Assembly: GCA_937925815.1 (NCBI GenBank)
Contig: CALAMQ010000091.1
Location: forward strand, 1-40,758
Direction of reading: 5' to 3'
DNA from: an uncultured Granulosicoccaceae bacterium
GTDB lineage: Bacteria > Pseudomonadota > Gammaproteobacteria > CALCKW01
Length of the DNA: 40,758 nucleotides
Below, piece by piece: positions 15,790-22,076 of the stretch (its first letter is position 1; every line of letters begins with the position of its first letter). Under the pieces are notes generated by a model, which was not told the origin of the DNA, searched no databases, and saw only the letters and a list, made by a program, of their open reading frames with translations. The position numbers and the translations under genes were made by a program.

Positions 15790-16706
15790 GCGCGCGCCCC
15801 AAACAGCCCGGACGGCCGCCAGACCAGTACCGCCCCCATCAAGATGTAAATGCTCATCGAGGCGAGTGCCGAGCCGGTTCGCTGGGCGGCGCCGGGTTCG
15901 AGAAAGAGTGCGAAGAGTTCGGGTAAGAAGACACCGCCCAAGGTGTCCGTCAATCCAACCAATAGGGCGCCCACAAAGGCGCCGCGTATCGAACCGATGC
16001 CGCCGATCACGATCACCACAAACGCGAGGATCAACACCGGTTCGCCCATGCCCACTTGCACGGATTGAATGGCGCCGACAAGCGCGCCGGCGAGTCCGGC
16101 GAGGGCTGCGCCGAGTGCGAAGACGATGGTGTAGAGCTTTGAGATGTCCACCCCGAGTGCCGCGATCATCTCGCGGTCATTTTCGCCTGCTCGGATTTGC
16201 GTGCCGAGGCGGGTGCGCTCAATTAGGCACCACAAGCCGAGCGCAACCACCAGACCAATGACAATCAACGCCAGTCGGTACTTGGAATAGGCAATGCCAC
16301 CTGGAAGTGTGATGGGGCCTGCAAGTGCGCTCGGAATGTCGAGGTAGAGCGGGAAGGAGCCGAATACCAAGCGGGTGCCTTCGGAGAAAATCAGTATCAG
16401 CGCAAAGGTCGCGAGTACTTGATCAAGGTGCGGCGCACGATACAGCCGCCGAATGATGAGGGTCTCAACCAGTGCGCCAGCGAAGGCCGCAGCGGTCAGT
16501 GCTGCAACCAGGGCCGCGAGAAAAGATCCGGTCAGGTTTGCGACCGTTGAGGCGGCGAAGGCCCCAACCATGTAGAGCGAGCCATGCGCGAGGTTGATCA
16601 GGCCCATGACGCCAAAAATCAGTGTGAGCCCGGCGGCCATCAAGAACAACATGATGCCCAACTGCAGACCGTTCAGGATCTGTTCAATGATCAGGATGGT
16701 GGACAT
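15786..16706 (-). CDS. livH: Branched-chain amino acid-type ABC transporter permease LivH
   Basis: A 306-aa membrane protein. The opening EQILNGLQLGIMLFLMAAG and the block LTLIFGVMGLINLAHGSLYM are hallmarks of LivH permeases. The coupling segment (ERTRLGTQIRAGENDREMIA, about 164-183) faces the ATPases. It is the first permease of the operon. A strong hairpin separates it from the binding-protein gene upstream. It overlaps livM by four bases at its 3' end. The substrate is undefined by this subunit. Confidence 0.92.
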   Translation of the reverse strand: MSTILIIEQILNGLQLGIMLFLMAAGLTLIFGVMGLINLAHGSLYMVGAFAASTVANLTGSFLAALVAALTAAAFAGALVETLIIRRLYRAPHLDQVLATFALILIFSEGTRLVFGSFPLYLDIPSALAGPITLPGGIAYSKYRLALIVIGLVVALGLWCLIERTRLGTQIRAGENDREMIAALGVDISKLYTIVFALGAALAGLAGALVGAIQSVQVGMGEPVLILAFVVIVIGGIGSIRGAFVGALLVGLTDTLGGVFLPELFALFLEPGAAQRTGSALASMSIYILMGAVLVWRPSGLFGARA

Positions 16707-19826: not shown

Positions 19827-21431
19827 GTGCTGGTGAAGCTGCGTGGCACTGAAGATTTTGCCAATCCTGTGTCTCATCACAACACGTATTTGATCACTTT
19901 CCTGCTGGCATTGTGTTCAGCTGTGGGACTGTGGCTGACCCGCAGTCCACTGCCTGCCGATTTCGACGCCATCAATTACGTCATGGGCATTGAGCAGTTC
20001 AACCTCGAATTGCACCAACCACACCCGCCGGGTGCGCCGATATTCATTGCCTTGGGCAAACTGTTGGCCATGACCGGAATGAGTGCGGTCGATGCGTTGC
20101 AGGGGCTGTCGGTGCTCGGAGGCGTGTTGCTTGTTGTTGCCTGGTATCGCTTGTTTTTGTTGATGGTCACTGAAGAGGTCGCGCTCTTTGCAGCCATTTC
20201 ATTGGCGTTAACACCGTCGCTATGGCTGAGTGCGACGCAACCGATGTCAGACACCCTGGCGGCGGCGGGGGTGTCGATTACGCTGTGGTTGGTGGTGCTG
20301 TTTTGGCAGCAACGCCGTACCAGTTTGGTGATTTTTGCGGCGTTGAGTGCAGCCTTTGCACTCGGCATCCGACCCCAGCTCGGGGTCTTTGTTGTGCTGT
20401 TGCTGATGTCGGCTTCTGTCGCGGTCAGGTTGCCTTTGAAAACGGCTCTGTGTGCCGCCTTAGTGTTTGCCGTGGCCAACCTCGCATGGCTGTTGCCGGC
20501 TGTGTTGATCCAAGCGCAACTCGCTGACGGCGACCTGTTCGCGTATTTCAAGCTCTTGGCGTCCTTTGGTGACGAATTTTCTGTCGCCTCGGACTCGCCG
20601 ATGCTCTCCAGCAAATTTGAACTGCTGCAAGTCTGGAAGCGCATCGTTATGCATTTCGGTGCGATGGGGTATTTTGGCGCCGGTTTGGGGTTGTGGTATC
20701 CAGATGAGTTAGCGCAGCGGCTCGCGTCTTTCGGCACTCGGTTGACCCCCATCTTTGCGGATCTTAAAGAGTGGAGTGTTGCGGGCTCTGTGCTGTTTTG
20801 TTTTTTCAGCGTTGGGGTGGCTTTGAGCCTGCGTCGCGCGCACAAAGTGGTGTTTAAACGCAAAGCGCTTCTCTTGTTATTTTTTGCGCTGCTGTACGCG
20901 GCGACTGTGCTGATGTTGGTGCCACCACACACACGTTTTTATTTGGTGTTGATACCGCTCTTGATGGTGTGGCCGTTGATCGGATTCTCGCGCCTGAAAG
21001 CGAACCGATACTGGTGCATTGCATTTATAGCCGCGCAACTTGCATCGCTCGGCAGTGTTGCGATGGACAGCCGCCGCGCGCCGCCACCGCCGATGGCGCT
21101 GGCCATGCAGCTCGCTGAATATCGCAAGGTGTCTGATGTGAACATCCACGCATTGCTCGACTCAAACGGCAGCCGCCACGTGCAGTGGATGCTGCCCGAA
21201 GTGCATTTGCATCAGCATATGCCGGAGTCGACACAGAGTTGGATGGAGCTCTTGGAACGTGGTGAGCGGGTGTTTTCAAACACCGTGACCGACAGTCACT
21301 TTCTCGGTCCACAGTTTGAGTTGATTGAAGTTGGTGACTACCGCCGGCCCTTGCGAGTGTGGATGCGCCACACCGGCACAACACTCTACGAAATCAGGCC
21401 GTCAGACACGGCTGTGAGTTCAAAGAGCTGA
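19827..21431 (+). CDS. Multi-span membrane protein, GT-C-type glycosyltransferase-like
   Basis: A 534-aa protein with about ten hydrophobic spans and a soluble C-terminal tail of about 110 residues. The first periplasmic loop has the acidic motif PADFDAINYVMGIEQFNLEL followed by HQPHPPGAPIFIALGK. The D-x-x-N-x-x-x-G plus HQPHPPG pattern is what I recall for GT-C lipid-phosphosugar transferases of the protein mannosyltransferase/ArnT type. A second landmark is VPPHTRFYLVLIPLL. Such enzymes use undecaprenyl- or dolichyl-linked sugars on the outer face of the inner membrane. Acceptor and sugar are unknown. The start GTG 19827 has AGAGGT six bases before it. The gene stands alone between a 274-bp gap and a MITE, so it may be an acquired unit. 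Confidence 0.65.
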   Translation: MLVKLRGTEDFANPVSHHNTYLITFLLALCSAVGLWLTRSPLPADFDAINYVMGIEQFNLELHQPHPPGAPIFIALGKLLAMTGMSAVDALQGLSVLGGVLLVVAWYRLFLLMVTEEVALFAAISLALTPSLWLSATQPMSDTLAAAGVSITLWLVVLFWQQRRTSLVIFAALSAAFALGIRPQLGVFVVLLLMSASVAVRLPLKTALCAALVFAVANLAWLLPAVLIQAQLADGDLFAYFKLLASFGDEFSVASDSPMLSSKFELLQVWKRIVMHFGAMGYFGAGLGLWYPDELAQRLASFGTRLTPIFADLKEWSVAGSVLFCFFSVGVALSLRRAHKVVFKRKALLLLFFALLYAATVLMLVPPHTRFYLVLIPLLMVWPLIGFSRLKANRYWCIAFIAAQLASLGSVAMDSRRAPPPPMALAMQLAEYRKVSDVNIHALLDSNGSRHVQWMLPEVHLHQHMPESTQSWMELLERGERVFSNTVTDSHFLGPQFELIEVGDYRRPLRVWMRHTGTTLYEIRPSDTAVSSKS

Positions 21432-21513
21432 GCTGTTTGCGGCCGGTGTCAGGCTGCGCGGCGGTCTTAGGGAGGCTCCGAAAAAGTCCCAGCTGAGTGC
21501 GAGACAAGGCGAA

Positions 21514-21611
21514 GCCAACCGTGTGACGGAGCATCCAAAAAAGCGTACCGGGCCGGCGCACCGGGTTATACGCAGTAAATGAGCATTTTGATTGGCCGTC
21601 ACACGGTTGGC
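21514..21611. repeat. Perfect 16-bp inverted repeat inside the MITE
   Basis: GCCAACCGTGTGACGG at 21514-21529 is the exact reverse complement of CCGTCACACGGTTGGC at 21596-21611, with 66 bases between. A transcript would fold into a long stem. It is nested within the terminal repeats, as in many MITEs and in REP-like mobile units. Confidence 0.9.
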
Positions 21612-21628
21612 ATCAACGCAGTATCGTG

Positions 21629-21658
21629 CGGCCGGCGCTCCGGCGGCCGGCGCTCCGG
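21629..21658 (+). repeat. Two tandem copies of a 15-bp unit inside the MITE
   Basis: CGGCCGGCGCTCCGG occurs twice in direct succession. Together with the preceding GTG it contains GTGCGGCCGGC, the core of the 14-bp tandem repeat at 5871-5912. Confidence 0.9.
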
Positions 21659-21728
21659 GGGCAGGCCTTCCTGACTGATGGGGCTTGTTCGGAGGTTCCT
21701 TAGCCCGGTTTTTTGCACCGGGCTGCGG

Positions 21729-22076
21729 TCAGCCCAGCCGCTTTGCCCACGCGACAGGATCAAAACCCACGGTGATGGCGTCTCCCCAGTTGACAACCGG
21801 CCGCTTGACGATGGACGGCTCGGCCACGGCGAGTTCCACTGCGCGCGCGCTGTCCAGTGCCGCGCGCGCGGTTTCGGGCAGCTTGCGCCAAGTGGTGCCA
21901 CGCTTGTTGATCAGCGTGTCCGGCGGTACAGCGTCTGCCCACTCGACGGCGAGTTCGCGAGATAAACCGTCTTTTTTCACGTTGTGAAAGCGGTAGACAA
22001 CGCCGGCGTCGTCTAGAAACCGGCGGGCCTTTTTGACCGTGTCACAGTTGGGAATACCGTAGACCGTGATTGTCAT
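21729..22076 (-). CDS. ArsC/Spx-family thioredoxin-fold reductase-like protein (YffB type)
   Basis: A 115-aa protein that opens TVYGIPNCDTVKKARRFLDD. The single cysteine in GIPNCDTVKKA is the family hallmark. NVKKDGLSRE and INKRGTTWRKLP follow the YffB/ArsC pattern, ending with the IVKRPVV block that contains the conserved arginine. E. coli yffB lies next to dapE; here the gene is coupled to dapD. Despite the family name, arsenate reduction is unproven, and glutathione-dependent thiol reductase activity has been suggested for YffB. The start ATG shares a base with the dapD stop (TAATG), so translation is coupled. Confidence 0.88.
   Translation of the reverse strand: MTITVYGIPNCDTVKKARRFLDDAGVVYRFHNVKKDGLSRELAVEWADAVPPDTLINKRGTTWRKLPETARAALDSARAVELAVAEPSIVKRPVVNWGDAITVGFDPVAWAKRLG

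Follow-up and report, generated by a model that had tools for sequence, protein, structure and literature searches.

The stretch of DNA analysed here, called the window, is 40,758 bases long and holds a 229-bp element located between the stop codons of two convergent genes, one encoding a PMT_2 glycosyltransferase-like protein and the other a member of the ArsC family. The ends of the element match at 16 of 20 positions when 21471-21490 (GGAGGCTCCGAAAAAGTCCC) is compared to the reverse complement of 21680-21699 (GGAACCTCCGAACAAGCCCC), and both flanks of the 229 bp, 21467-21470 and 21700-21703, read TTAG. The parts of the locus are as follows:

19827-21431, plus strand: PMT_2 glycosyltransferase-like gene, ending 39 bp before the element
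21467-21470, no strand: left copy of the target duplication, TTAG; the YTAG type is also found beside most other copies
21471-21490, plus strand: left terminal inverted repeat GGAGGCTCCGAAAAAGTCCC, IS5 type; a complete Pseudomonas insertion sequence has GGAATCTCCGAACAAGTCCC
21471-21699, plus strand: whole element, a foldback MITE of 229 bp, which folds into one long hairpin (z -6.55)
21493-21632, plus strand: family-wide hairpin core (model R2), enlarged here by insertions; 39.9 bits, rough E 1.5e-10, the sole R2 match in the window
21515-21529, plus strand: 15-bp stem extension in the left arm (CCAACCGTGTGACGG), which compact copies mostly do not have
21551-21563, plus strand: GC-rich 13-mer GGCCGGCGCACCG, an insertion adjoining the hairpin tip
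21596-21610, plus strand: 15-bp stem extension in the right arm (CCGTCACACGGTTGG), the perfect complement of 21515-21529
21630-21642, plus strand: GC-rich 13-mer GGCCGGCGCTCCG, first of the right-arm pair
21645-21657, plus strand: GC-rich 13-mer GGCCGGCGCTCCG, second of the right-arm pair
21680-21699, minus strand: right terminal inverted repeat
21700-21703, no strand: right copy of the target duplication, TTAG
21729-22076, minus strand: ArsC family gene, convergent, with its stop codon 29 bp after the element

A first-pass annotation had described this element as a 229-bp MITE with 20-bp ends and a TTAG duplication, no transposase inside and IS5-like ends. This description holds: the 16 of 20 matches are present, the boundaries are confirmed by other copies, 229 bp is too short for a transposase and the ends match those of complete insertion sequences encoding an NF033581 protein. 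In the window as a whole, there are 45 inverted-repeat pairs with at least 16 of 20 matches at element lengths of 60-400, and two of the 45 have identical 4-bp flanks. Forty dinucleotide-preserving shuffles of the window produced a mean of 14.8 such pairs and none with identical flanks, which rules out a chance repeat as the origin of 21471-21699.

The same annotation had named a BLASTN search of the own genome (G000; 3.56 Mb in 183 contigs) among its checks. This search returned 25 pieces at 16 places, which comprise 15 two-ended copies, the window copy included, and one left-end fragment (L020) that, by reading, appears to start at a stop codon. When 56 related genomes were searched, matches were present in five: G000 itself, a sister species of the same genus with 12 pieces and further copies (G002), and G001, G008 and G046, each with a single weak piece. 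The piece in G001 (L027) lies in GC-rich DNA and resembles a chance match. The copies in the sister species, combined with the class-wide relatives described below, rule out a single-genome curiosity. Small, multicopy and without a transposase, the window element has the properties that define a MITE.

For MITEs of the IS5 family, a YTAR-type 4-bp target duplication is the group rule. The 22 two-ended copies (15 in G000, 7 in G002) have flanks that are mostly CTAG or TTAG, with one ATAG. The two flanks are identical at all four positions in 10 copies, all in G000, and at three of four in 7 more, so perfect identity is absent in 12 of the 22; the right ends of L010, L016 and L037 were placed by string search and may be off by one base. 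The left flank ends in G in nearly all copies, and the right flank is CTAA or CTAT in two (L006 and L012). Because of this, a duplication of 3 bp (YTA) next to a preferred G, instead of 4 bp, is conceivable.

Copy sizes range from 93 to 233 bp among the 22 two-ended copies, with none of 100 nt. The copies are modular, with a compact 141-bp form on the one hand and longer forms on the other. In the latter, both arms have the stem extension, and GC-rich 13-mers are found close to the tip as well as in the right arm. The window copy is a long form, and the three longest copies in G000 are 94-100% identical to it. Among 251 loci, the 13-mer GGCCGGCGCWCCG is confined to copies of this element, barring one match in G001 (L027).

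The terminal repeats connect the element to complete insertion sequences. When the left-end pattern was scanned against 84,980 species, each represented by one genome, 27 stretches were found, of which Pseudomonas accounts for 20. The stretch in Pseudomonas sp. M47T1 (L067) is part of a complete element of ~1.17 kb, whose ends are GGAATCTCCGAACAAGTCCC and GGATGCTCCGATCAACTTGC and which has CTAG on both sides. It encodes a 326-aa protein containing PF05598 and PF01609. This protein scores 359 bits as NCBIfam NF033581, "IS5 family transposase" (cut-off 140), and the imperfect 16/20 repeats of the window element match the ends of this complete insertion sequence, as is found in IS5-family MITEs. 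A second end type, CAGGCTGTTGAAAAAGTC, is present on transposase-bearing elements from Methylosinus and Microvirga plasmids. Here too the transposases are NF033581 proteins, and that of Microvirga is 24% identical to the L067 enzyme. A partner transposase in the same genome is usual for MITEs, not obligatory. In G000, neither PF05598 nor PF01609 gave a match. With the L067 transposase as query, no piece was found in G000, G002 or G003, and G001 had a single weak one (E 0.0117). As no IS5 transposase was detected in G000, the family is orphaned in its own genome, as far as these searches reach. One Pseudomonas-type IS5 element (L059) comes from a small contig that bears the title Streptomyces sp. 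IBSBF 2953, where contamination of the assembly is likely.

The interior of the element has a much wider distribution. A covariance model built from 10 compact copies (R1) was run on a sample of 369 genomes of the class and matched 119 of them at E <= 0.001, with two of the 119 having supplied the model and with E-values for R1 and R2 that are rough by the tool's own warning. Eight candidates were scored per genome, which makes the copy numbers lower bounds, and among the matches listed most cover the full model of ~140 bp. The 28 matches that were printed have like interiors and different ends. Most of them have CAGGCTGTTGAAAAAGTC with CTAG, TTAA or similar flanks, and the other end types include GGAACCTCTGATTAA, GGACACCTCTATAAATTCG and GCGCTTTGCACGAA. 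Of 397 Pseudomonadota genomes, 118 were matched by a model restricted to the core (R2); the listing places 66 of these in the same class and 52 outside it, and 23 of the 397 had at least 10 scored copies. In the outgroup control, 1 of 197 genomes had an R2 match (E 2.3e-4), in the phylum of a Streptomyces contig. The core is also present in 15 plasmid records, 13 of them from Pseudomonas. It was absent from E. coli by blastn, and a search of phages for the core found none. Rfam gave no match over the window element at E up to 1. For 20 loci, run at E up to 0.5, it listed two matches, both outside the element. The window element thus belongs to a Pseudomonadota-wide family in which the hairpin core is conserved and the ends differ.

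The difference between interior and ends can be expressed in numbers. When copies of the CAGGCTGTTGAA type are compared to those with other end types, agreement is 33% in the terminal columns and 72% in the core, where random letters would give 25%; 28 of the 30 aligned A2 rows were used, leaving out the reverse-strand copy of L014 and L096. Seven end-type patterns, written after inspection of the ends, were applied to 139 sites: both ends fit in 59, one end in 29 and neither in 51. Inspection of the 51 by eye reveals at least two further types, GAGACCTTTGCACG and GGGCCTGTTAACACT. Several end types can be present in one genome, as in G518, which has CAGGCTGTTGAA and GGGCnCCTCTAAAAA, and the core is common to at least seven end types. 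Counts of target duplications from automatic end-finding were left out as they are confounded, CTAG itself being palindromic.

As a single strand, the element is predicted to fold. The z score of the window element is -6.55 (as DNA) and that of the compact copy L014 is -7.56 (as RNA). In 110 core matches (A4; 108 distinct rows, all 110 counted), standard pairs occupy 97.1% of the pair cells, compared to 79.1% when partners were shuffled and 33-44% when slid. Double-change cells number 586 versus 159.5 in the shuffles and affect 28 of the 30 pairs, with the pair counts flattered in that the model chain R1 to A2/A3 to R2 to A4 aligns sequences to the hairpin. In the A1 set, which was aligned with MAFFT and without structure, 13 pairs have a double change versus 4.3 in shuffles, and therefore the covariation does not depend on the structure-fitted alignment alone. 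The unpaired columns of the internal loops are conserved at 1.68 bits and the paired columns at 1.21 bits (106 of the 110 A4 rows, with four weak opposite-strand matches left out). All 106 of 106 rows have the same GA on the 3' side across from GSA, and there is almost no variation in three further features of the A4 core rows: the GA/GA loop, a bulged A and AAG/AACGC. In the lineage of the window, A-T pairs partly replace the GA/GA loop. These patterns suggest that the middle hairpin, beyond the ends alone, may have an important role.

Sites with and without the element bear on its mobility. No pair among the 139 sampled sites has an insertion point in common, to which the small number of copies sampled per genome may contribute. 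In the genus of G518, the region around one core-bearing copy was matched in 79 of 79 genomes, and among 30 loci the core is present at this place in one, that of G518. Here, the element (L176, ~2461-2620) is inside the loop of a terminator-like hairpin: GGGCGGG-CTAA-[CAGACC...GGTTTG]-TAA-CCCGCCC. The sister species G947 has GGGCGGGTTAAACCCGCCC at the same place. If a single substitution and the lack of one base are allowed for, this is an empty site whose target is TAA or YTAA. For the window copy no empty site was found, and the sister species that have the neighbouring ArsC-like gene keep it at only 50-55% identity. The G001 ortholog at L003 (85% identical protein) is without the element but has a different downstream neighbour, and empty sites for two plasmid copies were sought and not found. 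The annotation had stated that its reading would fail if there were no second copy anywhere and no empty site in relatives; many copies exist, and the clean empty site is that of the core-bearing relative in G518, seen in G947.

The exact ends, YTAG flanks, many copies, near full-length hairpin and ends in common with IS5-transposase elements are established parts of the picture, together with the lack of a detected IS5 transposase in G000 and membership in the Pseudomonadota-wide family with its conserved core. With good confidence, we take the window element to be a non-autonomous IS5-type MITE. It would have been cut and inserted at YTAG in trans, by the IS5 transposase of an insertion sequence since lost or transferred in. 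Less certain is that the core would be maintained by selection for the spread of the element itself. This is, however, the most likely reason for its conservation, because copies come and go while the interior stays. In mechanistic terms, replication or transposition would expose a single strand of the element, and this strand would form a hairpin whose internal loops are fixed and non-Watson-Crick: GSA opposite GA, GA opposite GA, a bulged A, and AAG opposite AACGC. A host factor or the transposition machinery would then recognise this mismatched hairpin, and the ends would track whichever IS5 transposase is available. A bolder version, which we hold tentatively and with slightly less than even confidence, is that the unit of selection is the interior and not the ends. 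Here, a mismatch-looped hairpin of ~95 bases would switch its ends among many IS5-type transposases across Gammaproteobacteria and other Pseudomonadota, its folded strand being recognised by a widespread putative factor.

Several other explanations for the conserved core must be weighed, and the one that survives best does not involve selection at all. Quasipalindrome correction, in which the template switches between arms, produces compensatory changes in a neutral hairpin. Arm-to-arm copying is indeed suggested by the perfect 15-bp extension in both arms of the long copies, as in the window lineage, and by L031, in which CCGTCACACG is present three times within the right arm of the hairpin. 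Under such correction, mismatches would be expected to disappear. Instead, no positions are better conserved than the mismatched ones, and the GA opposite GSA is present in every row. In addition, the interior is far better kept than the ends. Since copying between arms should remove mismatches and these are kept, we read their retention as probable selection on the folded strand, and upkeep by mutation alone is unlikely.

A second explanation is that the MITEs carry an RNA element recruited by the host, such as a small RNA, a 3' UTR stabiliser or a terminator, with the folded RNA being used by host transcripts. G-A mismatches in conserved internal loops are a typical feature of functional RNA, and the core has such loops. 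In addition, 8 of the 22 copies in the window genus have as their target a stop codon that ends an ORF of at least 260 aa:

L003, L004, L009, L026, L030, L034, L036, L039: copies whose target is a stop codon

At these eight, the YTAG duplication regenerates the stop and leaves the ORF intact, and at L003 both convergent neighbours end at the target. As background, of the 62 YTAG-type sites in the window, 2 coincide with the stop of an ORF at least 250 aa long. Against a role in transcripts, the strand of insertion relative to codirectional genes is sense in 31 and antisense in 49 of 127 contexts, with 28 tail-tail and 19 head-head (127 of the 139 sites, with one side having no usable gene in the other 12; genes were called simply as longest ORFs). 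The lack of preference for the strand with the G-A loops disfavours an RNA role, to which the lack of common insertion sites and of an Rfam match can be added. We consider host recruitment quite improbable.

Third, the elements could be internal-deletion derivatives, in which the core is leftover DNA of one parent insertion sequence and is conserved through the youth of the copies. Coreless MITEs of the deletion kind do share these ends (L056, 86 bp), and the near-identity of the three longest G000 copies to the window copy agrees with youth. The R2 core is, however, absent from the five IS loci examined (L067, L059, L099, L100 and L101), and on this ground a simple deletion product of one insertion sequence was rejected. 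Moreover, the core is present with at least seven end types in more than 100 genomes and has its double changes in 28 of 30 pairs. Descent by deletion is therefore very unlikely. As MITEs with the same end types and without the core exist (L056 and L104), the core is not required for such ends. L104 is a Paracoccus plasmid element of ~155 bp (~2005-2160) with CAGGCTGCTGAAAAAGTC ends, located between gluconokinase and photolyase genes.

Finally, the family is palindromic, intergenic and abundant in Pseudomonas-like genomes, which might bring to mind a repeat of the REP/REPIN type with a RAYT (Y1 tyrosine) transposase as its mover. This reading is scarcely credible and was rejected on length and ends, as REPs are 20-40 bp in the source consulted in part (PMC3733652) and the present copies are 93-233 bp with duplicated YTAG flanks and ends that match IS5-transposase elements.

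With the reading as an IS5-type MITE preferred, its place among described elements can be considered. The nearest is MITEPsy1 of Pseudomonas syringae, an IS5-derived MITE of 100 nt with the TIR GGAAGGTCTGAAAAAGCC and a 4-nt duplication of CTAG or YTAA, which transposes in vivo and has related sequences in P. stutzeri, strain HdN1 and Marinobacter, according to the parts of the report consulted (PMC3189936). The window element resembles it in being an IS5-derived MITE with similar ends and target. The two are set apart by length (100 nt versus 93-233 bp) and by description, not by interior sequence; a class-wide conserved core does not appear in the portion of the MITEPsy1 description at hand, where in vivo transposition is demonstrated, whereas the window family is known here from sequence alone (PMC3189936). 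In the same partial source, the ISPsy19 end GAGGGTGTAGACAAAAT resembles the end type GAGGGTGTnTACAAA. The IS5-family insertion sequences themselves (NF033581; L067, L100 and L101) are like the window element in terminal repeats and YTAG target, but carry a transposase and no hairpin core.

Intergenic repeats of P. fluorescens, including R6, R30, R178 and others, some with inverted repeats and some MITE-like, are intergenic like the present family, and are described, in the text available to us, for one species group and not with a class-wide core (PMC2718517). It is conceivable, by description only, that R6, R30 and R178 already include members of the present family from Pseudomonas. QMITE1 of Coxiella burnetii also has variable ends and a conserved core, but is larger, 300-400 bp, with short variable direct repeats, and its authors report it in C. 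burnetii only, as far as the consulted part goes (PMC5896051). Keyword and core-string searches of the open literature, with subscription papers mostly outside and weak evidence to that extent, found no published name or description of the family, and this IS5-type MITE family is probably unnamed so far. The annotation's suggestion of an undescribed family thus stands as to the name and has to be widened otherwise, the element being part of a far larger family with a conserved core and the similar MITEPsy1 being published, as seen in the sections consulted (PMC3189936).

Novelty beyond an IS5-type MITE lies in a mismatch-bearing hairpin core that is common to end types across the class, which is a testable question. 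Bacterial MITEs are usually regarded as dead IS remnants with arbitrary interiors. The interior here is the best conserved part across the class, with mismatches as strict as pairs, and this points to a recognised folded form. If it is true that the interior is the selected unit, the usual picture of MITEs, in which the ends alone matter, would be inverted. The abundance of the family makes both recognition of the core and its effect on transposition directly testable in laboratory hosts, and the covariance model is ready for annotating a repeat family that is absent from Rfam. Elsewhere in the window, positions 15874-16090 hold the other 16/20 inverted repeat with identical 4-bp flanks (CGAG), of which the 40 shuffles contained 0.
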